A stretch of DNA of 59,004 nucleotides, taken from the IMG/VR virus record IMGVR_UViG_3300027909_000023, positions 1 through 59,004 of that record; one strand, written 5' to 3'. This DNA comes from a virus. The notes below the pieces were generated by a model, which saw only the letters and a list, made by a program, of their open reading frames with translations, was not told the DNA's origin and did no database searches. A program made the translations under genes and the position numbers. This document shows positions 25,212-41,646 of the stretch, piece after piece (the first letter of the stretch is position 1; the number at the start of each line of letters is the position of its first letter).

Positions 25212-28200
25212 TCACACGGCGCGCCCGAGGTCGGCCCAGTCGTCCTCGTCCTCGGTCTCGATCGGCTCCGCGATCGGCTCGGCGTGCCAGTCGCTGCTGT
25301 ACCCCGGCACCGCGACCTCTTCCATCTCCGCCCAGTTCTGCCCCGCCTTCGCCGCCACGCCGATCGCGACGCAGTCGCCCGCCTCCCGGTACCAGGTCTC
25401 GGGCAGCGGCTGTTCAATCACCGGCCGTTGCATCTCCATACAGACCGTCTCGAACACCCGGTCCCACTGCCGATCCGGGATCTCCAGCAGCAGCGAGTCG
25501 TGAATCGGGGCGCGCAGCGGCGTCTTCCCGTAATACGCATCGCCGATGTAGCTCGGACTCTCCGGCTCCGCCAGCAACCGGATCATCGCCTCCTTGAGCA
25601 CGCCGGTTGCAATGCTTTGCGGGTAGAAGGCCAGGACGCGCTTGCCGTCTTCGCCTAGACTGACTTTGAAATGCTGCCCGTTGATCTCGACGCACGGCGG
25701 CGGCTGCCCCTGGCGCTCGTACTTCGCGACCAGGCGGTAGTACTGCGTCTGGGTCAGACGCTTGTAGCTGTAGACGGACCAGAACCAGTGCTTATAGGCG
25801 AAGGGATGGTCGCCAGCGCCACCGAGATAATGCTGCCGGCTGGCGCGCAGCTGCGTCTGCCGCTGCCAGTCCGCGACGCCGGGAGCCATCCGCTCGAAGA
25901 TGCGCGCATACTTCTCGCCCACCGCATGGGTCGGAAACAGGTGCGGGAACTGCAGCGTCATCCCCGGTACCGTCAGGCCGTAGCTGCGCCCGTGGATGTA
26001 GCGCTTCGCCGGCTCGTAGATCTCGTGGTGGTCGTGCTTCACCCGCTTGAACAGCGTGGCGAGCGCCACGTCACTCTGGCTCGGGTCGTAGGGCTGCCCG
26101 AGGACATGCGTCACCAGGGCGGCGTGGACACCGAGCTTGGCGAGGCGGTAGTACTCCGCATCACGCGCACACCAGCCCGTCTCGACTGCCTCAATCGCGG
26201 CGAAGTCGACTTCGAGCAGCCGGCAGCCAGCCTCAGCGACGATGCATTTCCTGAACCCGGCGGCGAGGTTGCGCTGGCTGTCCTTGTCGGCGACCACATT
26301 GGTGATGTTCGGGTTCGTATAACTCAGCCGCATGGTTGACGGCTTGAAGGTCGGCGTCGGGTGCAGCCGATCCTCCGCGTCCAGTCTTCTCTCCGTCCCC
26401 TCGACATAGGTCCCTTTGACCTTGCCGATCGCGCGGTAATCGAGCAGCGCGCTGTAGAACGGATCCCGGGTCGTGCGCGCCAGCCGCTCTAGGGTTTCGC
26501 GGTTGGTGCTTTCTTCGCTCTGGCTCTTTTTCGCTCGGCCGGGGTGGTGCTTGCGGTGCTTGATGTAGGCGAGGACCTGGGGGACGCTGTCGGGGTTGAA
26601 GGGTTCCTGCCAGAACCAGCGGCTGACAGTCGCAACGACAAGATCAACGCCTCCACCTCCAGCCGCGTCTGCTGGAGCGAGGCAGCGATGTCGTCGAGCC
26701 ACTTCACGACCGCCACAACTGCGGCAGACGAGGATCTCCCGGAGGACGAGCTTCTCGACAATCCTGGCTTTGGCATACAGCTCCTGTTTGATCTCACTCG
26801 ACGGCTTGCCCTTTCTGAGCGTCCCTTTCCGGGTGAAGGCACTCGCCTTCACATGCAGGAGATCGGCCGCTGGCGGGCGGCGTAGCCCCTCCTTGGGGGT
26901 CAGGGGGGCGAGCGCCTCGGGAACGCATCCCTGGAGCGTCTCCAGCTTCTCGCGCGCCTTGTCGACCAGCTCCTGCTTGAACACCAGCAGTCCCGCCCGG
27001 TCGACCTTGACGCCCACCAGCTGCGCCGGCCGCAGGACCTCGGTCAGCAGCCGGTGCGTATGCCGCATCGCCACCTGATACATCCCCTGCTGCTGCAGGT
27101 CGGTCAGGATCCCGAACCCGACCCGGTGCGTCTGCAGTCCGTCGATCGCCCCGTATTTGGCTGGCTCTTCCGCGGCGAGGTGCTTCCAGGGACCATACCC
27201 GCTGTAGAACGGCGCGACGAACCCTAACCCTCGCGGCAGGTCGCTCTGCAGGAAGTGCCACAGCCACATCAAATCCACCACCCGCGTCGAGTCGATCTCT
27301 CTCATTAGCTCGGCGCGCACCTGCCGCACGAAGTCGTACTCGCGGTTCCACATCCAGATCTGCCCGGGCGACGCGTACAGTCTCTTCAGCTCATCGAGAT
27401 ACGGGCCGGCGTGCGGCACCGTCACGCCCTCATCGGGGTGACAACTCACGTTGTGCCGCAGCAGCTGGAAGCTGACGTCGTCGGCGCCGATCTCGCCCTC
27501 GTCCTGGCCGCCGGCCTTGTCCGGTGTCTCGACGTCACTGGAGATCGGGTAGGCGCCCGGGTCCTGACATCTCGCAGCGATCACCTGATCGACCCAGGCG
27601 CGGAACCACTCGACCGGCGGGTCGACGACCAGCGAGTAGTCGTCCGTCGGCCGCCCGTGGTCTCTCGCCTGCTCGGCCCGCTGCAGGTCCCACAGCACCG
27701 TGCCGATCAGATTCGTCGCGCCGCGCTGCAGGTAGCTCGGGTGGAAGGTCGGCACCACCCAGAAGCGATCGGTCGGGTCGCGCACGACGCTGCCGTGGAA
27801 GTCCTGGACGCGCACCTTCTTCTTGTGTTCGAGGTGCAGCACCCGCCTGAGCGCCGCCATCCCCATCGGCACCACGACCTGGTGGCCTTCATCGAGCGTG
27901 TCTTTCAGGTACGGGCAGTGCCCCATCGCCGAGTAGTACCAGGGCGCGCGTTCGTCGAACCAGTCGTTAGGCGGGTGGCAGCTGATCGTGTTGTGGATGC
28001 GGATCGCGTCGCGTCTCCAGCCGAGCAGATTCAGCAGCCGCGTCAGCATCCCGCCCGCGTCGCCCATGAACGGCCGGCCGGTGAGCGCCTCGACCTTGCC
28101 GAGCGACTCGCCGACCAGCAGCAGCCAGCTCTCGGGCGGACCATCCGCGGGCGCGAAGCCTTCGCCGCGCTCGTCGAGCACGCAGCCGCGACACCCAGGC

Positions 28201-28220
28201 GGATGACTAAGCTGCGCCAC
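25212..28220 (-). CDS. Uracil-DNA glycosylase / 3'-5' exonuclease / family A DNA polymerase fusion
   Basis: 1002 residues from GTG 28220, chosen because AAGGAGG is 6 bases upstream and the next residues are the UDG domain. Residues 1-190: family 4/5-type uracil-DNA glycosylase with four cysteines for a 4Fe-4S cluster (C10, C13, C81, C102), GESLG (37-41), TGRPFMG and the HPSY motif (160-163). Residues 225-370: DEDDy exonuclease with D229-V-E231, N292/D296 and Y356-x3-D360. Residues 380-960: family A polymerase with motif A around D672 (EVDFAAIEA), motif B K739-x3-H-G-x2-YG and motif C H907-D908-S909, where HDE is usual. A small Cys cluster (C499, C502, C513) is inserted between exo and palm. 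This is the phage replicative polymerase; the fused UDG could remove or sense uracil in template DNA. Confidence 0.9.
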   Translation of the reverse strand: MAQLSHPPGCRGCVLDERGEGFAPADGPPESWLLLVGESLGKVEALTGRPFMGDAGGMLTRLLNLLGWRRDAIRIHNTISCHPPNDWFDERAPWYYSAMGHCPYLKDTLDEGHQVVVPMGMAALRRVLHLEHKKKVRVQDFHGSVVRDPTDRFWVVPTFHPSYLQRGATNLIGTVLWDLQRAEQARDHGRPTDDYSLVVDPPVEWFRAWVDQVIAARCQDPGAYPISSDVETPDKAGGQDEGEIGADDVSFQLLRHNVSCHPDEGVTVPHAGPYLDELKRLYASPGQIWMWNREYDFVRQVRAELMREIDSTRVVDLMWLWHFLQSDLPRGLGFVAPFYSGYGPWKHLAAEEPAKYGAIDGLQTHRVGFGILTDLQQQGMYQVAMRHTHRLLTEVLRPAQLVGVKVDRAGLLVFKQELVDKAREKLETLQGCVPEALAPLTPKEGLRRPPAADLLHVKASAFTRKGTLRKGKPSSEIKQELYAKARIVEKLVLREILVCRSCGGREVARRHRCLAPADAAGGGGVDLVVATVSRWFWQEPFNPDSVPQVLAYIKHRKHHPGRAKKSQSEESTNRETLERLARTTRDPFYSALLDYRAIGKVKGTYVEGTERRLDAEDRLHPTPTFKPSTMRLSYTNPNITNVVADKDSQRNLAAGFRKCIVAEAGCRLLEVDFAAIEAVETGWCARDAEYYRLAKLGVHAALVTHVLGQPYDPSQSDVALATLFKRVKHDHHEIYEPAKRYIHGRSYGLTVPGMTLQFPHLFPTHAVGEKYARIFERMAPGVADWQRQTQLRASRQHYLGGAGDHPFAYKHWFWSVYSYKRLTQTQYYRLVAKYERQGQPPPCVEINGQHFKVSLGEDGKRVLAFYPQSIATGVLKEAMIRLLAEPESPSYIGDAYYGKTPLRAPIHDSLLLEIPDRQWDRVFETVCMEMQRPVIEQPLPETWYREAGDCVAIGVAAKAGQNWAEMEEVAVPGYSSDWHAEPIAEPIETEDEDDWADLGRAV

Positions 28221-28416
28221 GCGCTTCCTCCTTGGTCGGCTTGCGCTGGTACAGGTAGCTCGCCCCGCAGCCCTGGCACTCGGCAAACTCGGTGACGACG
28301 CGAGCGATCGTGTCGTAGAGCGCGCCGTGGCGGCGCCACGTCGTGCCTTGGCACACGCCGCAGGTCATGCGCGCCAGCTTGCCCGCGGCATCACAGGCGT
28401 CTCCAGTACCCTTCAT
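28207..28416 (-). CDS. Small zinc-ribbon protein
   Basis: 69 residues with two CxxC pairs (CGVC around residue 19 and CQGC around 47) separated by about 25 residues, the spacing of a zinc ribbon. A basic tail follows. The gene overlaps the polymerase start by 14 bases and the upstream gene by 26 bases, so it is co-translated with the polymerase. Possibly a DNA- or RNA-binding accessory; no enzymatic motif. Confidence 0.7.
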   Translation of the reverse strand: MKGTGDACDAAGKLARMTCGVCQGTTWRRHGALYDTIARVVTEFAECQGCGASYLYQRKPTKEEARGAA

Positions 28417-29745: not shown

Positions 29746-29821
29746 GGCGAGGTAGCTCAGTCGGTAGAGCACTGCACTGAAAATGCAGGTGTCGCCAGTT
29801 CGATTCTGGCCCTCGCCACCA
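29746..29821 (+). tRNA. tRNA-Phe (GAA)
   Basis: A 76-nt tRNA with perfect acceptor (GGCGAGG/CCTCGCC), D, anticodon and T stems. The seven-base anticodon loop CTGAAAA gives GAA, phenylalanine. The discriminator is A and CCA is encoded at 29819-29821. The integrase stop codon follows directly at 29822, with the integrase convergent to the tRNA. This is the classic arrangement of an integration site in a tRNA 3' end, so the tRNA probably serves as (or is derived from) the attachment site. Confidence 0.95.
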
Positions 29822-31027
29822 TCACGCCGTCTTCTGCGCCCGCTCGTTCTCACGCGACCAGACCTTCTCCCGCAGCTCCTGCGTCGCCAGCCGCAGCTCC
29901 TCGTGCTTGTAGCGCCCGTGCGTATCGGCCTGCGAGGTGTGCCCCTGCAGGAACTTCGCGGTCGCGTCCGACACGCCGCACAGTCCCCACCACGTCGCCG
30001 CCTCGTGCCGGAAGTCGTGCGGGCGCAGGTTCGCGGCCTTGTACGCCTCGCGAGTCTCCGCGGTGAAGTACTTGCCGCGCCCGAGGTACTCGCACGGGAT
30101 ACCGTGGACGAGGCAGACCGCCTGGACCCAGAGCTTGAAGACCTTCCGCAGCGTGACCACGTAGGCCGCAGCGCCAGCGAACCGGCGGCGTTTGAGGATC
30201 TCCGCCACGCGCCCGACTGGATTGAACGGCACCACGCGGAACTCGCCGCGCTTGGTGCGTCGGAGGGTGACGGTGCAGGCGTGCCAGTCGACGTCCTGGT
30301 TCTTCAGGTTGAGTAGCTCGCCCGCCCGCGCCCCGAAGTCGATCCCAAGGATGATGTAGTCGGCGAGCGCCGGCCCTGCCTTCCGGTGCTTCGCGGTGGC
30401 GAGCGGCCCGTAGCACATCTCCAACAGCCACGCCTCGCTGTTCGGGTCGCAGCGCTCGGTGCGTCTGTTCTCGGCCTTGATGTCGATCTTGAACTGGTAG
30501 CGACCGAACGGATTGAAGGTGACGAGAGCGGGACGCTGGTTCAACCCCCACAGCAGCGCCGGACGGACGACGGCGGCGAGGACGCGGTTCGGCGTGGCGA
30601 TCTGGAAGCCGGCGTCGGTCATCCGCGTGACGTAGTCGCGGAAGGTCTCGGCGTTCTCCCACTTCGACAACGGCAGCGCGCCGAACGCCTGCTGCGCGGC
30701 GCGCTCCTTTGACAAGTCGGCTGCTGATTGCTTGCGCGTCTTGGTCGCGATCCAGCGGTTGATCAAGTCGTAGCCGTGCAGCTCGACGACCGGCGCTGGC
30801 GCTTCTACCTTCGGTGTCGGCATCGGCTTCCCCCGTACCAACCAGTCCTCGACGCGGCGCTTCAGCATCATCGTATCGGTCTTCGTCGTCGGGATCGGCT
30901 GGTGCGGTTCGAGCAGGAACGCGAACTTCTTCACCGAGCCGAAACCTGAGGTTCGATCGCCCTCGTGCTGTGCGCGGATCCACCAGGTCTTGCCCCGCAT
31001 CGCGACGCCATCCTTCCACTTCGCCAT
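29822..31027 (-). CDS. int: Tyrosine recombinase (phage integrase)
   Basis: 401 residues. Catalytic residues of the tyrosine recombinase family are all visible: R234 in GARAGELL, K259 in RTKRGEFR, H337-x2-R340 in HDFRHE, H363 in LQGHTS and nucleophile Y373 in HGRYKH. Residues 85-170 form the SAM-like core-binding domain. The N-terminal 65 residues (KDGVAMRGKTWWIRA) look like an AP2-type arm-binding domain. It inserts and excises the phage at a tRNA-Phe. The gene abuts the tRNA and follows an excisionase-like gene without a gap. Confidence 0.93.
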   Translation of the reverse strand: MAKWKDGVAMRGKTWWIRAQHEGDRTSGFGSVKKFAFLLEPHQPIPTTKTDTMMLKRRVEDWLVRGKPMPTPKVEAPAPVVELHGYDLINRWIATKTRKQSAADLSKERAAQQAFGALPLSKWENAETFRDYVTRMTDAGFQIATPNRVLAAVVRPALLWGLNQRPALVTFNPFGRYQFKIDIKAENRRTERCDPNSEAWLLEMCYGPLATAKHRKAGPALADYIILGIDFGARAGELLNLKNQDVDWHACTVTLRRTKRGEFRVVPFNPVGRVAEILKRRRFAGAAAYVVTLRKVFKLWVQAVCLVHGIPCEYLGRGKYFTAETREAYKAANLRPHDFRHEAATWWGLCGVSDATAKFLQGHTSQADTHGRYKHEELRLATQELREKVWSRENERAQKTA

Positions 31028-31246: not shown

Positions 31247-31353
31247 TACCGCCTCCCGCTACGAAACCGCCACCACTGAATCACCAGCACCGCCAGCACC
31301 CCGACCACCAGCGCCGCCAGCAAATTCCCCCCGATCTCAAGCGTGAGCTGCAT
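31246..31353 (-). CDS. Tiny single-pass membrane protein
   Basis: 35 residues: MQLTLEIGGNLLAAL followed by a continuous hydrophobic helix through VLVIQWW and a basic end RFRSGRR. AGGAG lies about 9 bases upstream of the ATG at 31353. The stop overlaps the GTG of the excisionase-like gene (TAGTG) and the start overlaps the end of the methyltransferase gene, so it fits the tight operon. Topology: N-out, basic C-terminus in the cytoplasm. Function unknown. Confidence 0.6.
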   Translation of the reverse strand: MQLTLEIGGNLLAALVVGVLAVLVIQWWRFRSGRR

Positions 31354-32584
31354 GGATGGTGCTCCTGGCGGTGACGATGTCGACGCTCGGCAGCGGGAAG
31401 ATCAGCGTGCCGCGCTCCTGGTGCAGGAACTTGGCCTCGCGCGCAATCACCGCGTCGCGGAACTGCCAGATGCCGACCAGCAGCGCATCGGGCGGGTCCA
31501 TCCGCCCCGTCTCCTCGCTGACGATCGGGATGTTGGTGGCGACGGTGCGCCGCCCGATCTTCTCGGGGCTGCGCTCCCACGCCTGCCGCAGCCAGTTGCG
31601 GTTCAGTTCACAGACCTGCAAGAGCGTGTTCGCCTTGGTGCTCGCGCCGTAGAGGTCGATCGTCTGGCCGAGGCCGCGGCGCACATCGAGCGTCGCGCGG
31701 ATCTGCTGCCGCACCTGCCGGACATTCCAGGCGAAGCGCTCCAGCGTCGACCACTCCTGGCACCAGGCCTCCTCCGCCAGGGTCTGGGCGACGTGCGGGC
31801 TGACCGGATGGCCCGGGTGCTGGACGTAGATCCGGTAGCTGCCCCCGTTGATCTGGCGCAACTCGACATCCGTCACCACCAGCCCGAAGCGTTCGACCAG
31901 GTGCTTGAAGGTGTGCAGCGAGTAATACGCCAGGTGCTCGTGACAGACGTTGTCGAAGGCGCGGGCGCGGAGCATTCCGGCAAGATCCTGCATCTGGACG
32001 ATCCAGACGCCGTTCGGGTGCAGCAGCGCCTGCACGGCGGTGAGGAAGGTCGCCAGATCATTCACCGCGTAGAACATCGCGATCGAGGTGATCACGTTGA
32101 CCTTGTGCTCGAACTGCCGCACCACCGAGTACTGGTCGGGGAAGTAGCTGGCGATGACCATGTCGGCGTGCGGCTGCAGACGCGCCTGCAGGTTCTTGGC
32201 CGGCTCGAACGCCACCCGCAGCGGCTTCGGCAGGGCCAGCCGCTCGTCGGCGTAGCGCGCCAGCAGCGTGCCGTCGTTCGCGCCCAGGTCGAAGACGACA
32301 TACTCCTCGGTCGCCGGCACCCGTCGGCGTGCGGCATCGACGACATCGTGCAGCTCCGCCTTCATCACCTCGTTGATCCCCGACTGATACCAGTAGCGCT
32401 CGAACAGCAGCTCGCGCGGCGTGGTGTCCTGCAGCTGCACCAGCCCGCACTCGACACACGCGGCGAGCACCAGCGGCACCCGCGGCCGGCGGTCCTCCTC
32501 CGGTTCGAGATACCCCGACAGCTGGATGCTTCCCAGGTCGAGAAACGAATCGAGGCTCCCGCGGCAGCTCCTGCACTGCATCAT
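31337..32584 (-). CDS. Sugar C-methyltransferase-like protein
   Basis: 415 residues. The N-terminal zinc site uses C4, C7, C43 and C46. A class I SAM-binding domain follows with VFDLGANDGTLL (residues 97-108). The C-terminal Rossmann-like part carries YGASTKANTLL and a T-N-I-P-I-V-S stretch. This three-part order is that of NDP-hexose C-methyltransferases such as TylC3/NovU-type enzymes, which add methyl to the C3 of keto-deoxysugars. The CHEHL motif (NVCHEHLAYYS) of that family is also present. Such an enzyme is rare in phages and implies an unusual branched sugar as target. It lies in the glycan operon upstream of two more methyltransferases. Confidence 0.85.
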   Translation of the reverse strand: MMQCRSCRGSLDSFLDLGSIQLSGYLEPEEDRRPRVPLVLAACVECGLVQLQDTTPRELLFERYWYQSGINEVMKAELHDVVDAARRRVPATEEYVVFDLGANDGTLLARYADERLALPKPLRVAFEPAKNLQARLQPHADMVIASYFPDQYSVVRQFEHKVNVITSIAMFYAVNDLATFLTAVQALLHPNGVWIVQMQDLAGMLRARAFDNVCHEHLAYYSLHTFKHLVERFGLVVTDVELRQINGGSYRIYVQHPGHPVSPHVAQTLAEEAWCQEWSTLERFAWNVRQVRQQIRATLDVRRGLGQTIDLYGASTKANTLLQVCELNRNWLRQAWERSPEKIGRRTVATNIPIVSEETGRMDPPDALLVGIWQFRDAVIAREAKFLHQERGTLIFPLPSVDIVTARSTIHAAHA

Positions 32585-33139
32585 CTATCTCCTTGTCAGC
32601 ACCAGGCTCGCCAGTGAATGGTCGTCGAGCAGGTTGCCGTGATAGGTCCAGTCGACACCGCCGAAGGTCTGGAAGCCGGCGCGCTTGGCGTCGACGATCA
32701 GCTTGCGCCAGTTGCGCTCGTCGTAGATCCGCATCCGATGCTGATGCCCCGCCGCGGTGTCTTCTCCCTCGGCATCCCAGAAGGCAAAGGTCAGGAACAG
32801 CAGCCCGTGCTGCCGCAGGACGAGCGCGGCGCGCGACAGGAACTTGACCGGCGCTTCCGTCCGATCGAGCACGCACAGTCCCCAGATCGCCGGCAGCCCG
32901 CGGTGGATGCCGTTGGTCGGCTGCTCGTAATACTCGTAGACCGCCGCCGGCCCCGGGGCGATGAAGCCGATGTCGCTGTAGTTCACCACCAGCGACGAGG
33001 CGCGCGTGCGAATGTGATACTCGCTCTCCCACAGCGCCCAGGCCTCCTCCGCCAGGCTCTGCTGCCAGTCGGCGACCGTGATGCAGCCGGGGAAGTCCCG
33101 GAGATTACAGGTCCGCGACAGCGCGGTCACCACACTCAC
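32585..33139 (-). CDS. Methyltransferase-like protein (degenerate SAM motif)
   Basis: 184 residues from GTG 33139, which overlaps the preceding stop as GTGA and has GGAG 8 bases upstream. The C-terminal half aligns by eye with the next gene upstream: both end TFGGVDWTYHG / AFGGVDPTFHG, then a D-x-x-(L/F)ASLV stretch. LCVLDRTEAPVKFLSRAALV and GLLFLTFAFWD match the later strands of a class I methyltransferase. The glycine-rich SAM motif I is not evident (SDIGFIAPGP is the nearest), so activity is uncertain. Probably a diverged tandem paralog of the 33136-33774 gene. Confidence 0.65.
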   Translation of the reverse strand: MSVVTALSRTCNLRDFPGCITVADWQQSLAEEAWALWESEYHIRTRASSLVVNYSDIGFIAPGPAAVYEYYEQPTNGIHRGLPAIWGLCVLDRTEAPVKFLSRAALVLRQHGLLFLTFAFWDAEGEDTAAGHQHRMRIYDERNWRKLIVDAKRAGFQTFGGVDWTYHGNLLDDHSLASLVLTRR

Positions 33140-33774
33140 AGCCGCTTCTCCACCACCAGACTGGCGAAGGTGTAGTCCCAGACGTGCAGCCCATGAAAGG
33201 TCGGATCCACCCCGCCAAAGGCGGTGAGGTGCAGGGCCGCGAGCGTCTGGCGCAGCTGCGCGTAGGTCTTCTGGCAGAACAGCCGCTCGCGCAGTTCCTT
33301 GTTCCCGGTCGTGTCCGGCCCGCAGCGGTTCCAGTAGTCCATCGTCAGGACCAGCAGGCCACCCGGCGCCACCAGGCAACTCAGGTGATAGAGGAAGCGG
33401 TCCAGCTCCTTGACATGCTCGATGACGGAGAGACAGGTCACCGCCTTACTGAGCGCGGCGCCCCCTTCGCTCACCCACTCCTCCAGCGGATAGCCATCGA
33501 CCAGCGCCGGGTCGACGACGATCACTTCTTTCCCAGTCCAGTCGCGCAGCATGTAATGGAAGGCACTGCCGGCGCCGCCGATGTCGTAGACCGGCCCCTC
33601 CCACGGCCCGCCTCGCTCGCGCCAGCGGCCCAGTGCCTGCAGCGCCAGCGCATACTCCCACCGGCGGTGCGTGTGCGGCAGCGCGTTCGGATGCGCGTCG
33701 ACCGTCTGCAGCTCGTGCTCCAGGTGGTCGTAGTCCTTCGGGTCGAGCGTGCGTGACAGGCAAGTCAGGCTCAC
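33136..33774 (-). CDS. Class I SAM-dependent methyltransferase
   Basis: 212 residues with motif I VYDIGGAGSAF (62-72), an acidic post-I residue in VIVVDPA, CLSVIEHV (motif II region) and GGLLVLTMDYW (motif III). It resembles methyltransferases of glycan and natural-product clusters. Overlaps downstream and upstream neighbours by 4 bases, so co-translated with the paralog and the GT4 gene. Substrate unknown; a sugar or lipid-linked glycan is inferred from context. Confidence 0.8.
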   Translation of the reverse strand: MSLTCLSRTLDPKDYDHLEHELQTVDAHPNALPHTHRRWEYALALQALGRWRERGGPWEGPVYDIGGAGSAFHYMLRDWTGKEVIVVDPALVDGYPLEEWVSEGGAALSKAVTCLSVIEHVKELDRFLYHLSCLVAPGGLLVLTMDYWNRCGPDTTGNKELRERLFCQKTYAQLRQTLAALHLTAFGGVDPTFHGLHVWDYTFASLVVEKRL

Positions 33775-34721
33775 TGGGCTACCTCCCGATAGAGCTGCGC
33801 GTACTTCGCTCCCAGCCGCTGCCAGCTCTCCTTCTTCGCCAGCTGCCGGATGCGGTGCGTATCCCGTTTCTGTGTCGAGGGGATGCTGGCCAGCAGCTCC
33901 AGCCCGAACGTGATCTGGTCGAAGTTCTCATACCAGCGAATCGCCCGATGCCCGAGCGTGTCTTCATAGAGGGCGCGGAACTGCCGGCACGACGACAGCG
34001 CCAAGACCGGCTTGCGCGCCGCAATCCCCAGGAGCAGCGCGCCACTCTGTCCGGCAAACGCGCAGGTGTAAAGGAACGCCGTCGCGTCGCAGCCGGCGAG
34101 CAAACTGATCGCTTTCGCACGCTCGACGAACTCAGGGTGGACGATGACCTCCGGCTGACGCCGCTGCCACTCCGCGACCTGTTCGACGGTCGCCCCCGGC
34201 GCCAGCAGCAGCAGGTCCCAGCCAGCCGCCTTGGTGATGTCGCAGAGCGCGTCGTAGTTCTTCCAGGCGTTCGGGAAGCCGATCGTGCCGAGCAGCGGCT
34301 TGTCGTCCCGGAGTGACTGCGGCGGGCGGGTCCACTCGGGGACGCCCATCCGCCAGTAGCGGGTCTTCTCGGCGGGCAGATCGTCGAACGGCTCATGCAC
34401 GACCGCGGCGTCGGCCGCGTCGACGATTGCCTTGCACTGATCGGAGTTCGGGACGCCGCTGTCGTGATAGGTGACGACGACCGGGACGCGCCGCCGCAGC
34501 TGCGCGATGTGTTCCGGCCACCAGCGCGAGTGCAGGGCGGCGTGATAGTTGAGATGCACGACCTCGACCTCGGTCACGTCGACGTGCGCCGGGTCGAGGG
34601 CTGCCACGTCGGGCAGCATGTCGATCGACGGATCGGCCTGCTCGACCGCGTCGGTCAGCATCGCCGAGTGCTCAGCGATGCCGCAGGCCGTGCCCCAGGT
34701 CGTGACCAGTAGGACTCTCAT
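33771..34721 (-). CDS. GT4-type glycosyltransferase
   Basis: 316 residues from ATG 34721 (GGAGGAGAGG just upstream). N-terminal GT-B Rossmann half starts MRVLLVTTWGTACGIAEHS, with the Gly-rich acceptor loop; VPVVVTYHD is a typical strand before the interdomain region. The C-terminal half has LLGTIGFPNAWKNYDALCD (a donor-side G-x2-K-N pattern) and SGALLLGIAARKPVLA, where the usual E-x7-E is reduced. A family 4 transferase using a nucleotide sugar is the best fit. Part of the glycan operon. Confidence 0.8.
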   Translation of the reverse strand: MRVLLVTTWGTACGIAEHSAMLTDAVEQADPSIDMLPDVAALDPAHVDVTEVEVVHLNYHAALHSRWWPEHIAQLRRRVPVVVTYHDSGVPNSDQCKAIVDAADAAVVHEPFDDLPAEKTRYWRMGVPEWTRPPQSLRDDKPLLGTIGFPNAWKNYDALCDITKAAGWDLLLLAPGATVEQVAEWQRRQPEVIVHPEFVERAKAISLLAGCDATAFLYTCAFAGQSGALLLGIAARKPVLALSSCRQFRALYEDTLGHRAIRWYENFDQITFGLELLASIPSTQKRDTHRIRQLAKKESWQRLGAKYAQLYREVAQ

Positions 34722-34834
34722 AGCCCTCTCCTCCGCCACCACGCCGCGACGGGCGACCAGTAGCGCAGCCAGAACCACCAGCCGCTGAGGCTGCGGGGGC
34801 GCATACCGAGCGCGATCTCCTGCCGCTCGCTCAT
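34718..34834 (-). CDS. Tiny Trp/Arg-rich protein
   Basis: 38 residues, MSERQEIALGMRPRSLSGWW then FWLRYWSPVAAWWRRRGL. AGGAGAAGG precedes the ATG at 34834, and both ends overlap neighbours by 4 bases (ATGA), a strong sign of a real coupled gene. The Trp/Arg-rich C-terminus could be membrane-associated. No family recognised. Confidence 0.6.
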   Translation of the reverse strand: MSERQEIALGMRPRSLSGWWFWLRYWSPVAAWWRRRGL

Positions 34835-35208
34835 ACCTTCTCCTGCACCGCGTCGCCGACCAGCGCGTTGATCGACTGAATCAGCGCCGCCCGCCGGTCG
34901 TTCCACTCCTGGATGCGGAAGGCGCACTCGATGATCTCCTCGCGGTGGCTCACCTTCGTCCCCTCCTGCTTATACCCACGCAGCCGATCCTCGGCCTGCC
35001 ACAGCGCCGAGTTCACCGCCGCCAGGTCGCTGTAGTGCTCGGTCCAGCGGCCGGCGCTCGCCGCCAGCAGCTTCGGCAGCAAGGCGGCGCGCTCGCGCTG
35101 GAAGTGCGTCACGTCGATCCCCTTGACCTCGCCATGCAGGATCTTCAGCGCCAGGATGGTCAGCCGGTCGCAGACTTCCCCCAGCCCGAAGTTCACCAGC
35201 CGACTCAC
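34831..35208 (-). CDS. DUF6165 protein associated with glycosyltransferases
   Basis: 125 residues matching the DUF6165 pattern: G-E-V-x-D-R-L-T-I-L near residue 10, L-A-A-V-N-x2-L-W-x2-E-D-R-L-R (62-76) and E-W-N-D-R-R-A-x-L-I-x2-I-N at the end. These helical proteins are found beside glycosyltransferases in bacterial and phage glycan clusters; their biochemical role is not known to me. Overlaps both neighbours by 4 bases. Confidence 0.8.
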   Translation of the reverse strand: MSRLVNFGLGEVCDRLTILALKILHGEVKGIDVTHFQRERAALLPKLLAASAGRWTEHYSDLAAVNSALWQAEDRLRGYKQEGTKVSHREEIIECAFRIQEWNDRRAALIQSINALVGDAVQEKV

Positions 35209-38878: not shown

Positions 38879-41383
38879 TCACAACCACGCCCGCAGCCGC
38901 GGGTCCGTCACGCACCGCTCCACCAGCGCCTGCGGGCTGCCGACCAATCGCAACCCGGCGGCACTTCTCGCTCGGCTCAACGCGACATAGAGCATCCCTG
39001 GCGACTTGAAGAACGGGTCGCGGATGTTGACCTGGACCCGATCGAGACTCAGTCCCTGCGAGTTGCTGCCGACGAACGGCCCGAAGCCTAGCTCGTGGAT
39101 CGTTTCCAGCTCGATGTCGAACATCGGCACGATCACCTTCAGGCACTCGATCGTCTTGACAGTGTCCGTCCCGTCGAAGTGCTTGATCACGCGGTTCGGA
39201 TGCCACTCGCCTAGTGCGCGCTGTTTCTCGGGGTGGGAGAAGCCGACCAGCGCTTCGTAGCGGTCGCGTTGCTCCGCATTGATCCAGACGTGCTGGTACG
39301 GCCCCGTCGGTCCCGCGTAGGTGCCGCGCGTGCTGGCGATGCCGAGATACAACAACAGCTGCTGCACGTCGCAGGCGAGTCCTTCCGACCGCGTCGCGTA
39401 GACCAGCCGGCGATCGATCATCGAGCCATCGGTGTCGAACAGGCCCTGTAGGCACGCCGCCCAAGCCGACGGCCCCGACGTCCAAATCGCCTCAGGGACG
39501 CGCTTGTCCACCGCGGTGACGTAGTCGCAGCCCCACGCTGCGAGCCGGAGCCGCAGTGGCAGGCTGGTGAGATGACAGCCGCGCTCGTCGCGGCGTGTGT
39601 TCGGCCGCCCACCGAGTCGCTGCGCGATCGCCATCCAGCGCTCGCGCAGGTGCGCGACCTCGCTGGTGAAGTGGATCTGGCCTTCGCGCTGGTCAGCCCA
39701 GGCGGCGTTGCCGAGCGAGGCACCGATCCACCACGCGAGGTCGCTGTCGATCTCCTGTGTGCCGGTGATCGTCGCGGTTGTCGTTAGGCAGATCGGGTGA
39801 TCGGGGACGAGCTTGCACGTCTGGCGGAAGCCATGCGGCGTCTTCCACCGATGGTCGGGCGAGCAGAGCAGTGTGTAGCCGCGCGCGGTGGTCAGTCGAT
39901 GCAGACGACACTCGGTCTGCGCCACCGCCTTGAGGCGTGCGAGGCCGCCGCCCGTATCGATCCACTCGCCGACGCGTAGATCACACACGCGCACAGCGCC
40001 GCGGCCGGCGACTAACACGCGCGTGTCCGGCGCGACGCACTTATGCACCGTCGATGCATATGCAACTCTGAGCGGCAGGTAGGTAATGCTCCCGACCACT
40101 TCCCACTTGCCGTCGATCCGTGTCGCGCCCTCCGGCCCTTTCTCGCGCAGCTCTTTCCTCCGCGCCGAGTCACACGGCACCTTCACATCCCGGGTGACCG
40201 GCTCGACTTCCACCACCTCGCCGGTGCGCTGCAGCTCGACCCAGCAGGTCGCCTCGGTGGCGTCGACGATCGTCCCGAGGTCGCCGTTGACATACAGCAG
40301 CCGCCGCGGCAGCAGCTCGGTCCGGCGGTTGGCGAGGATCATCACCAGCGCGCCGATCTTCAGCGGCAGCACCTTCGGGATGCCCCACTGCGCCTCCGGC
40401 TTCTCCAGCTGGCCCCACTCGCTTCTGAGCTTCCCCCAGCGGTGACTGGTGAACTTCAGCTCTTTGCCCTGCAGCTGTGACATCCGCAGGTAGTTGAAGC
40501 GGTCGACCGACTCGTTCTTCGCGACGATGGTCGGGCCGTCGTAGTGATCGTCGGTCTCGTGGTTGATGGCGTTCCGGCTGGCGAAGTACTCCGCCACCAC
40601 CCGCCCGCGGCCATGGCGCGCCGCCCGCAGCACGGCGATGAAGTCCTGGTCGTCCTGGCGGTAGATGCGGTCCAGGGTGATGACGTTCGGCGCGAAGCGC
40701 TCCCACTCGGGCGACTCGAACGCATAGCTCGCCTTCACCGGACTCAGCTGCGCGAAGTCGCCCACCAGCGTCAGCCCCATCTGCGGCGGGTCGTCGTCGT
40801 CCGGCGTGCTCTTGCCGAGGACATACCCGCGCCCGTTCACTTCGTCGATCGCCCGCACCAGGAAGGTGAGCTGGTCGCCCGCCAACATGCTCACTTCATC
40901 CAGCACCAGCCGGCGCACGCCCGACTTCCACAGTTTCCCGAGCTTGGCGGTGAGGAAGCCGGTGATGTAGGCCTCCTGCAGGCTGGCGGTGTCGAAGTAG
41001 CCGAGCACGCTGTTGATCGTTTCGCCGCCGAGATTGATCGCCGCAATCCCGGTCGTCGCGCACAGCACCAGCCCCGGCTCCTTCTCCGCCCACTCCCGGG
41101 TCGCGAAGGTCTTGCCGCTCCCCGCCGGCCCCGCCAGATAGGTGAAGGTTGGAGCCGGCGCTGCCCACAGCGTCCCATCAGCCGCGCGGGGTGGGCCGAG
41201 GTCCGGCAGGATTGACGGTGCCTCGACGCGCGCTGCTGGCGTCACGACCGGGGCGGGCGCCGGCTCCATCTCGATCGGCGCCCGTTCGATCGGCGCCCGT
41301 CGCCGGGGCTGCACCACGGGTGCGACCGGCGCCGCAAAGGCGAGATCCGGGTCGGGCGGCGTCACTTGTCGGGTGACCGCCAT
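38879..41383 (-). CDS. PIF1/RecD-like helicase interrupted by an intein
   Basis: 834 residues from ATG 41383 (TGATG overlap with the cold-shock gene; GTG 41386 is an alternative). Superfamily 1B helicase with Walker A G-P-A-G-S-G-K-T (85-92), Walker B L-V-L-D-E-V-S-M (159-166) and motif III V-G-D-F-A-Q-L (207-213). Near the end, the signature T-V-H-K/S-Q-G-L-S-L-D is split by a 326-residue intein (449-774). The following VALSRARS is motif VI. After splicing the helicase is about 508 residues, the normal length. Likely unwinds DNA in phage replication or recombination beside the polymerase and RecB-like nuclease. Confidence 0.9.
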   Translation of the reverse strand: MAVTRQVTPPDPDLAFAAPVAPVVQPRRRAPIERAPIEMEPAPAPVVTPAARVEAPSILPDLGPPRAADGTLWAAPAPTFTYLAGPAGSGKTFATREWAEKEPGLVLCATTGIAAINLGGETINSVLGYFDTASLQEAYITGFLTAKLGKLWKSGVRRLVLDEVSMLAGDQLTFLVRAIDEVNGRGYVLGKSTPDDDDPPQMGLTLVGDFAQLSPVKASYAFESPEWERFAPNVITLDRIYRQDDQDFIAVLRAARHGRGRVVAEYFASRNAINHETDDHYDGPTIVAKNESVDRFNYLRMSQLQGKELKFTSHRWGKLRSEWGQLEKPEAQWGIPKVLPLKIGALVMILANRRTELLPRRLLYVNGDLGTIVDATEATCWVELQRTGEVVEVEPVTRDVKVPCDSARRKELREKGPEGATRIDGKWEVVGSITYLPLRVAYASTVHKCVAPDTRVLVAGRGAVRVCDLRVGEWIDTGGGLARLKAVAQTECRLHRLTTARGYTLLCSPDHRWKTPHGFRQTCKLVPDHPICLTTTATITGTQEIDSDLAWWIGASLGNAAWADQREGQIHFTSEVAHLRERWMAIAQRLGGRPNTRRDERGCHLTSLPLRLRLAAWGCDYVTAVDKRVPEAIWTSGPSAWAACLQGLFDTDGSMIDRRLVYATRSEGLACDVQQLLLYLGIASTRGTYAGPTGPYQHVWINAEQRDRYEALVGFSHPEKQRALGEWHPNRVIKHFDGTDTVKTIECLKVIVPMFDIELETIHELGFGPFVGSNSQGLSLDRVQVNIRDPFFKSPGMLYVALSRARSAAGLRLVGSPQALVERCVTDPRLRAWL
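39062..40039 (-). other. Intein with LAGLIDADG-like endonuclease domain
   Basis: 326 residues, Cys1 (C-V-A-P-D-T-R-V-L, block A) to the terminal Asn of F-V-G-S-N, followed by extein Ser. Block B is SPDHRWKT around intein residue 60. A LAGLIDADG-type pair follows: LAWWIGASLGNAAW and LQGLFDTDGSM. The penultimate residue is Ser instead of the usual His, and the first LAGLIDADG helix ends LGNA rather than LGDG, so the first catalytic Asp looks replaced. Inserted exactly inside helicase motif TVHK/SQG. Confidence 0.9.
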
Positions 41384-41646
41384 CACAACCCGCTCTCACT
41401 CCGAATGTGTTCCGCTCGCAGCCCCTTGGCGACCACGCGCGGCTCGAACACCACCATCGCGCCTTCCTCCAGCTCCTCGATCCGCCGGTCGTCGAGACCA
41501 CTCATGTGAAAGAAGTAGTCCTTGCCGACTTCCCCCACGCCCTCGGTGCAGCGGATGAAGCCGAAGCCGCGCTCGGGGTAGAGGCGCTGCACGCGACCGC
41601 GCGCCTCAGGCAACTCGGAGCGGGAGGACGTCTCTGAAGAGGTCAT
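41383..41646 (-). CDS. Cold-shock-domain protein
   Basis: 87 residues. A cold-shock OB fold with RNP1 as R-G-F-G-F-I (26-31) and RNP2 as Y-F-F-H (44-47), followed by EELEEGAMVVFEPRVVAKGL, typical of CspA-like single-stranded nucleic-acid binders. N-terminal 12 residues are Ser-rich. The start ATG 41646 is used because the longer frame runs back through another gene. It overlaps the helicase start (TGATG); a role as RNA chaperone or ssDNA-binding partner of the helicase fits. Confidence 0.85.
   Translation of the reverse strand: MTSSETSSRSELPEARGRVQRLYPERGFGFIRCTEGVGEVGKDYFFHMSGLDDRRIEELEEGAMVVFEPRVVAKGLRAEHIRSESGL

Follow-up and report, generated by a model that had tools for sequence, protein, structure and literature searches.

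A phage family A DNA polymerase with an N-terminal family-4-like uracil-DNA glycosylase domain that retains known catalytic residues

The locus and its genomic surroundings

The window analyzed in this work, i.e., the whole stretch of 59,004 nucleotides, is a virus record of IMG/VR (IMGVR_UViG_3300027909_000023). A single open frame without internal stop, at positions 25212-28220 of the minus strand, encodes a protein of 1002 residues. It starts with a uracil-DNA glycosylase (UDG) domain that is family-4-like and of the Fe-S type, followed by a 3'-5' exonuclease of the DEDDy type, a CCHC insert, and the polymerase, which belongs to family A. The preliminary description of the window had proposed a GTG start with a good ribosome binding site, and we find AAGGAGGA, which includes GGAGGA, five bases upstream of this codon. 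The features of the gene are the following:

25212..28220, minus strand: UDG-exonuclease-polymerase open reading frame (1002 aa, GTG start)
28226..28233, minus strand: ribosome binding site AAGGAGGA, from the sequence
27651..28220, minus strand: UDG domain, aa 1-190 (Pfam PF03167; model with pLDDT 95.9 matching family 4 UDGs)
28182..28193, minus strand: predicted Fe-S ligands C10 and C13, invariant in 17 aligned sequences
28089..28112, minus strand: UDG motif A GESLGKVE (E38, E44), from the alignment; role of its Glu in catalysis according to PMC10359453
27978..27992, minus strand: predicted uracil-recognition N77 and Fe-S ligand C81 (NTISC), from the alignment; intein site in relatives L011 and L012
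27915..27917, minus strand: predicted Fe-S ligand C102, from the alignment
27723..27743, minus strand: UDG motif B HPSYLQR (H160-R166), from the alignment
27021..27623, minus strand: 3'-5' exonuclease domain, about aa 200-400, DEDDy residues invariant in the alignment
26682..26726, minus strand: CCHC zinc-knuckle-like insert (C499-C502-H511-C513), invariant in 17/17 sequences
25326..26606, minus strand: family A polymerase domain, aa 539-965 (Pfam PF00476)
26190..26207, minus strand: polymerase motif A DFAAIE (D672, E677), from sequence and alignment
25977..26006, minus strand: polymerase motif B KRYIHGRSYG (K739, H743, Y747), from sequence and alignment
25494..25502, minus strand: polymerase motif C HDS (H907-S909), from sequence and motif count

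The window phage is probably a temperate tailed phage. The genes up to about 23.8 kb lie mostly on the plus strand, in a block that is probably structural, judging by its layout. A tyrosine integrase gene (29822-31027) abuts, at its 3' end, a full tRNA-Phe (29746-29821), and this junction suggests that the phage is temperate and uses a tRNA as its attachment site. This polymerase is the only one found when the record was searched for family A, from which we infer that it is replicative. Methyltransferase-like and other non-replication genes (31337-35196, minus strand) are found between the integrase and a Dda/Pif1-like helicase gene (38879-41386, minus strand). The latter has a LAGLIDADG domain at aa 643-715, after which the helicase sequence resumes, and the insert is a probable intein. 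A small open reading frame with two CxxC pairs (28207-28416, minus strand) overlaps the start of the polymerase gene and has no tblastn match among the loci of 20 relatives. The search for related prophages gave one match, with 37% identity, in an Ardenticatenales MAG (contig of 7 kb); such a lone match is insufficient to identify the host, and we do not retain this clade as such.

Domains and sequence motifs of the fused protein

In a search with Pfam profiles, residues 25-169 of the window protein matched UDG (E=4e-17) and residues 539-965 matched DNA_pol_A (E=2e-23); each score exceeds the curated cut-off (83.2 vs. 34.3 bits for PF00476). The nearest solved relatives of the UDG domain by sequence are the family 4 UDGs of Thermotoga and Thermus. 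The full-length AlphaFold model, made with 17 sequences, resembles Klenow-type polymerases; its UDG part is unreliable (pLDDT about 30) and was replaced by a model of this domain built with 63 sequences (pLDDT 95.9), for which the nearest fold is the family 4 UDG 1l9g (Foldseek, E 1.7e-16). C10, C13, C81, and C102 align with the cysteines of Tm and Tth UDG, the predicted 4Fe-4S ligands. The motif 3 Asn and the HPS motif B of family 4 are present in the window (N77 and H160-P161-S162), and motif A, which is GE[AG]PG in this family, is GESLG, with the Glu kept and both the A/G and the P changed. If residues are assigned roles by analogy with published studies of UdgX and Tth UDGa (PMC10359453, PMC10776899), N77 would be the counterpart of the uracil-binding Asn, H160 that of the motif B His, and E38 that of the motif A Glu. 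Since the domain scores 74.1 bits with TIGR00758, below the curated cut-off of 125.3 bits, we call it family-4-like and do not file it as a member of family 4. Membership in UdgX can be rejected. The hallmarks of this group are the KRRIH R-loop, with its cross-linking His, and a Gln after the motif A Glu (PMC10359453); the window protein has no KRRIH R-loop between N77 and C102 and has S39 in place of the Gln.

The preliminary description had identified the three domains correctly. Its four UDG cysteines, as well as the motifs GESLG (37-41), HPSY (160-163), and DVE (229-231), are at the positions it gave, and the residues predicted to be catalytic are present in all three modules, including D672, E677, K739, Y747, and D908 in the polymerase. 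It had also placed a Cys cluster before the palm, which is indeed there and is more exactly a CCHC pattern at 499/502/511/513 (C499-x2-C502-x8-H511-x-C513), a putative metal site by this pattern. Motif C is HDS rather than HDE, as it had noted, at residues 907-909; this is not unusual, because HDS is the commonest form in a rough motif count (45/74 sequences) and SPO1 has VHDS, so we ruled it out as an oddity. An alignment of motif B by eye suggests that H743 and Y735 are the equivalents of F762 and R754 of the E. coli enzyme, respectively.

Relatives and conservation of the fusion

A protein scan of IMG/VR with the window protein identified 24 loci. Among these, 18 are distinct and have a full-length frame, while the rest are genes cut by contig ends, one duplicate, and one split polymerase (L027), whose split at residue ~664 is away from the UDG junction. 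The scan based on an alignment yielded 39 loci, many of which fall on the same contigs. The 18 full-length relatives, all on other IMG/VR contigs, share the continuous frame (three of them with in-frame inteins), and their start codons, mostly ATG, are homologous to the GTG of the window. We looked for a frame junction or a missed stop between the UDG and the rest of the protein and found none. The relatives thus show that the fusion is no artefact, and the chance that two genes were merged by a frame error or an assembly join is negligible.

Conservation is high in the three modules. In 17 aligned sequences, C10, C13, C102, E38, E44, N77, H160-S162, the DEDDy residues (D229/E231, D296, Y356/D360), D672, E677, K739, and the CCHC residues are invariant. 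A clade of two relatives (L020/L022) lost C81, the third Fe-S ligand, together with its loop, and retained E38, E44, N77, and H160. Against seven relatives (Nei-Gojobori), the UDG region has dN/dS values of 0.13-0.28 and the polymerase region values of 0.22-0.27, which indicates that both regions are under the same purifying selection.

The fusion extends beyond the close relatives of the window. Among the roughly de-duplicated IMG/VR UDG matches that we examined, 77 out of 86 are fused in the same frame with PolA, a figure that is no census since the main UDG scan demanded the pattern [VI][VIL]P[TS][FY]HPSx[LI] and the sample thus favors intact motifs B and window-like sequences. In the non-redundant UDG-PolA fusions, E38 is kept in 71/74 (two more have Asp), E44 in 74/74, N77 in 73/74, and H160 in 75/75, the figure for H160-S162 being biased by the sampling on the HPS pattern. 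In a quick UDG tree, the window falls within a cluster of 48 rows, all fused (support 94, unstarred). The distribution of fusions on this tree requires 5 state changes, of which at least 2 are forced by well-supported branches. UDG-PolA fusions are a common type of polymerase in environmental phages, where they are usually annotated just as "DNA polymerase".

Some of these genes contain inteins. Two relatives (L011 and L012) have one in the UDG active site, at C81 (TIS^CFPGDT...VHN^CHPP), and another (L024) has one within exonuclease motif II. More inteins were found by eye at exonuclease or polymerase sites in L064, L088, L110, L116, L126, and L129. Inteins usually occupy conserved functional sites, and we counted their presence in the UDG, exonuclease, and polymerase active sites in favor of a conserved functional UDG.

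Comparison with known systems

The preliminary description had left open whether this exact architecture was already published, which it is: the UDG-exonuclease-PolA order was reported in 2020 for gp205 of Pseudomonas phage PaBG and its group (PMC7412058). As described there, the proteins of this Lupandier group have, like that of the window, an N-terminal UDG, a 3'-5' exonuclease, and a C-terminal polymerase in one chain, and the window protein has these three parts in this order, which is what defines the PaBG type. The likeness to gp205 is by description only, and there are also differences: the window polymerase has the CCHC insert, and the PaBG/Lupandier group consists of jumbo phages whereas the contigs related to the window are mostly of 45-76 kb. 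The PDB also contains such a protein, the phiLo family A DNA polymerase (9qhs), for which our literature search did not find the accompanying paper. Its residues 9-164 form a UDG-like domain (UDG profile E 9.7e-20; fold match to the window UDG model E 3.7e-07), where the profile match starts past the N-terminal Cys pair, so that this protein may lack the Fe-S cluster. Several further phage polymerases with models in BFVD match as well.

The catalytic residues have different fates in these proteins. The family 4 UDGs of Thermotoga (1vk2) and Thermus (1ui0) share with the window the fold, the four Cys, the Asn, the His, and the Glu, but they are stand-alone proteins with motif A GEGPG instead of GESLG. 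The polymerases of MW202455 (Manatee Spring phage) and vir526 (Methanomicrobiales virus) are single-chain UDG-exonuclease-PolA proteins in which the E, the N, the H, and all four Cys are intact; they are shorter than the window protein (804-859 aa) and 24-28% identical to it over the matched parts. Bacillus phage SPO1 gp31 has a UDG-like N-terminus (E 2.8e-27 with Tth UDGa), an exonuclease, a PolA, and the same HDS motif C. Unlike the window protein, it lacks the Fe-S Cys and has Ser for the Asn, given which it is probably not a glycosylase, and its gene has an annotated intron. The polymerases of Serbin, PMBT14, and STP9 have Pro at the position of the uracil-recognizing Asn, while in those of Zuko (Gly for Asn) and Triscuit (Pro for Asn) motif A is lost, as is the His of motif B. 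A deaminase gene adjoins the polymerase in Serbin, PMBT14, Zuko, and Triscuit, and the first two additionally have a thymidylate synthase beside it. However, MW202455 has a thymidylate synthase and an annotated hydroxymethylase and yet its UDG is intact, so the association between altered pyrimidine metabolism and the decay of the UDG is only a lead.

Interpretation of the UDG domain

We consider it fairly probable that the window encodes a phage replicative family A polymerase carrying a catalytically intact, family-4-like 4Fe-4S UDG. The profile matches, the invariance of E38, E44, N77, and H160, the low dN/dS, the intein sites, and the single frame support this reading, against which we weighed the GESLG motif A, the TIGR00758 score below the cut-off, and the loss of C81 in the L020/L022 clade. 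In addition, the fused UDG domains of several cultured phages are degenerate, which shows that the domain can persist without excision. In an intact enzyme, the UDG would flip uracil resulting from the incorporation of dUMP or the deamination of C into its pocket, where N77 would recognize the base, and H160 and E38 would promote glycosidic cleavage. The exonuclease would proofread and the polymerase would copy alongside this excision, with the tether holding the glycosylase at the fork. Excision would then be coupled to copying, and the repair would be completed by the host AP endonuclease and ligase, which we invoke because no phage AP endonuclease was found.

More tentatively, the fused UDG could act in cis on the DNA of its own polymerase, i.e., a single polypeptide would remove uracil, and losses such as those of SPO1 and Serbin would reflect an altered pyrimidine chemistry. 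We regard this extension as possible but doubtful. If true, uracil removal would be built into phage replication. The family of the window has kept the known catalytic residues, and most of the cultured examples that we checked have not; this family is therefore well suited for tests of uracil excision in cis by a replicative polymerase.

A UDG may also be retained for reasons other than excision. Vaccinia D4 is a separate subunit, from a different UDG family than that of the window, and is associated with a family B polymerase. As the window UDG would be, it is at work inside a viral replicase (PMC10253040), and by this poxvirus precedent the domain could mainly be a module for DNA binding and processivity, with excision as a secondary role. 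The phages SPO1, Serbin, PMBT14, STP9, Zuko, and Triscuit, which keep the domain after losing the Asn, point to such a non-catalytic use. Pure DNA binding requires none of the catalytic residues, yet these are invariant in the family of the window, and we find this role rather unlikely there. It is less probable still that the domain senses uracil in the template and makes the polymerase stall before reaching it, without cutting, as in archaeal family B polymerases. The location of the UDG on the N-terminal side of the exonuclease and the retention of the Asn and pocket residues would fit such a role, but the Glu and His for glycosidic cleavage are retained beside the Asn, and cutting is the simpler explanation.

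The preliminary description had suggested that the fusion might serve against deaminase defense or against deamination at high temperature. Protection of phage DNA from a host defense that raises dUTP or deaminates cytosine, which has no more than general plausibility in its favor, seems very improbable: a search of the window and 19 related contigs, which are possibly incomplete records, detected neither a dUTPase nor a thymidylate synthase, a cytidine/dCMP deaminase, or an Exo_endo_phos-type nuclease. The same search of four families in 20 contigs gives no support to a link between this lineage and a pathway for dUTP or hmU. The suggestion of high temperature is also unsupported, as nothing points to a hot habitat.

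Split polymerases

Together with the inteins in three active sites, relatives with split polymerases provide further handles on these proteins. In L027/L055, L054, L056, L058, and L060, the polymerase is split just ahead of motif A, close to residue 664 of the window protein, and such splits occur in more than one region of the UDG tree. An intron was rejected as their cause, as a search with Rfam found none in the split polymerases and in L055 and L058 there is an overlap between the two frames where they meet. Other open reading frames lie between the polymerase halves in L054, L056, and L060. Those at about 7901-8437 in L054 and about 8718-9470 in L056 look NADAR/YbiA-like by eye (FLSNFYP...PTVEHAYQAAK).
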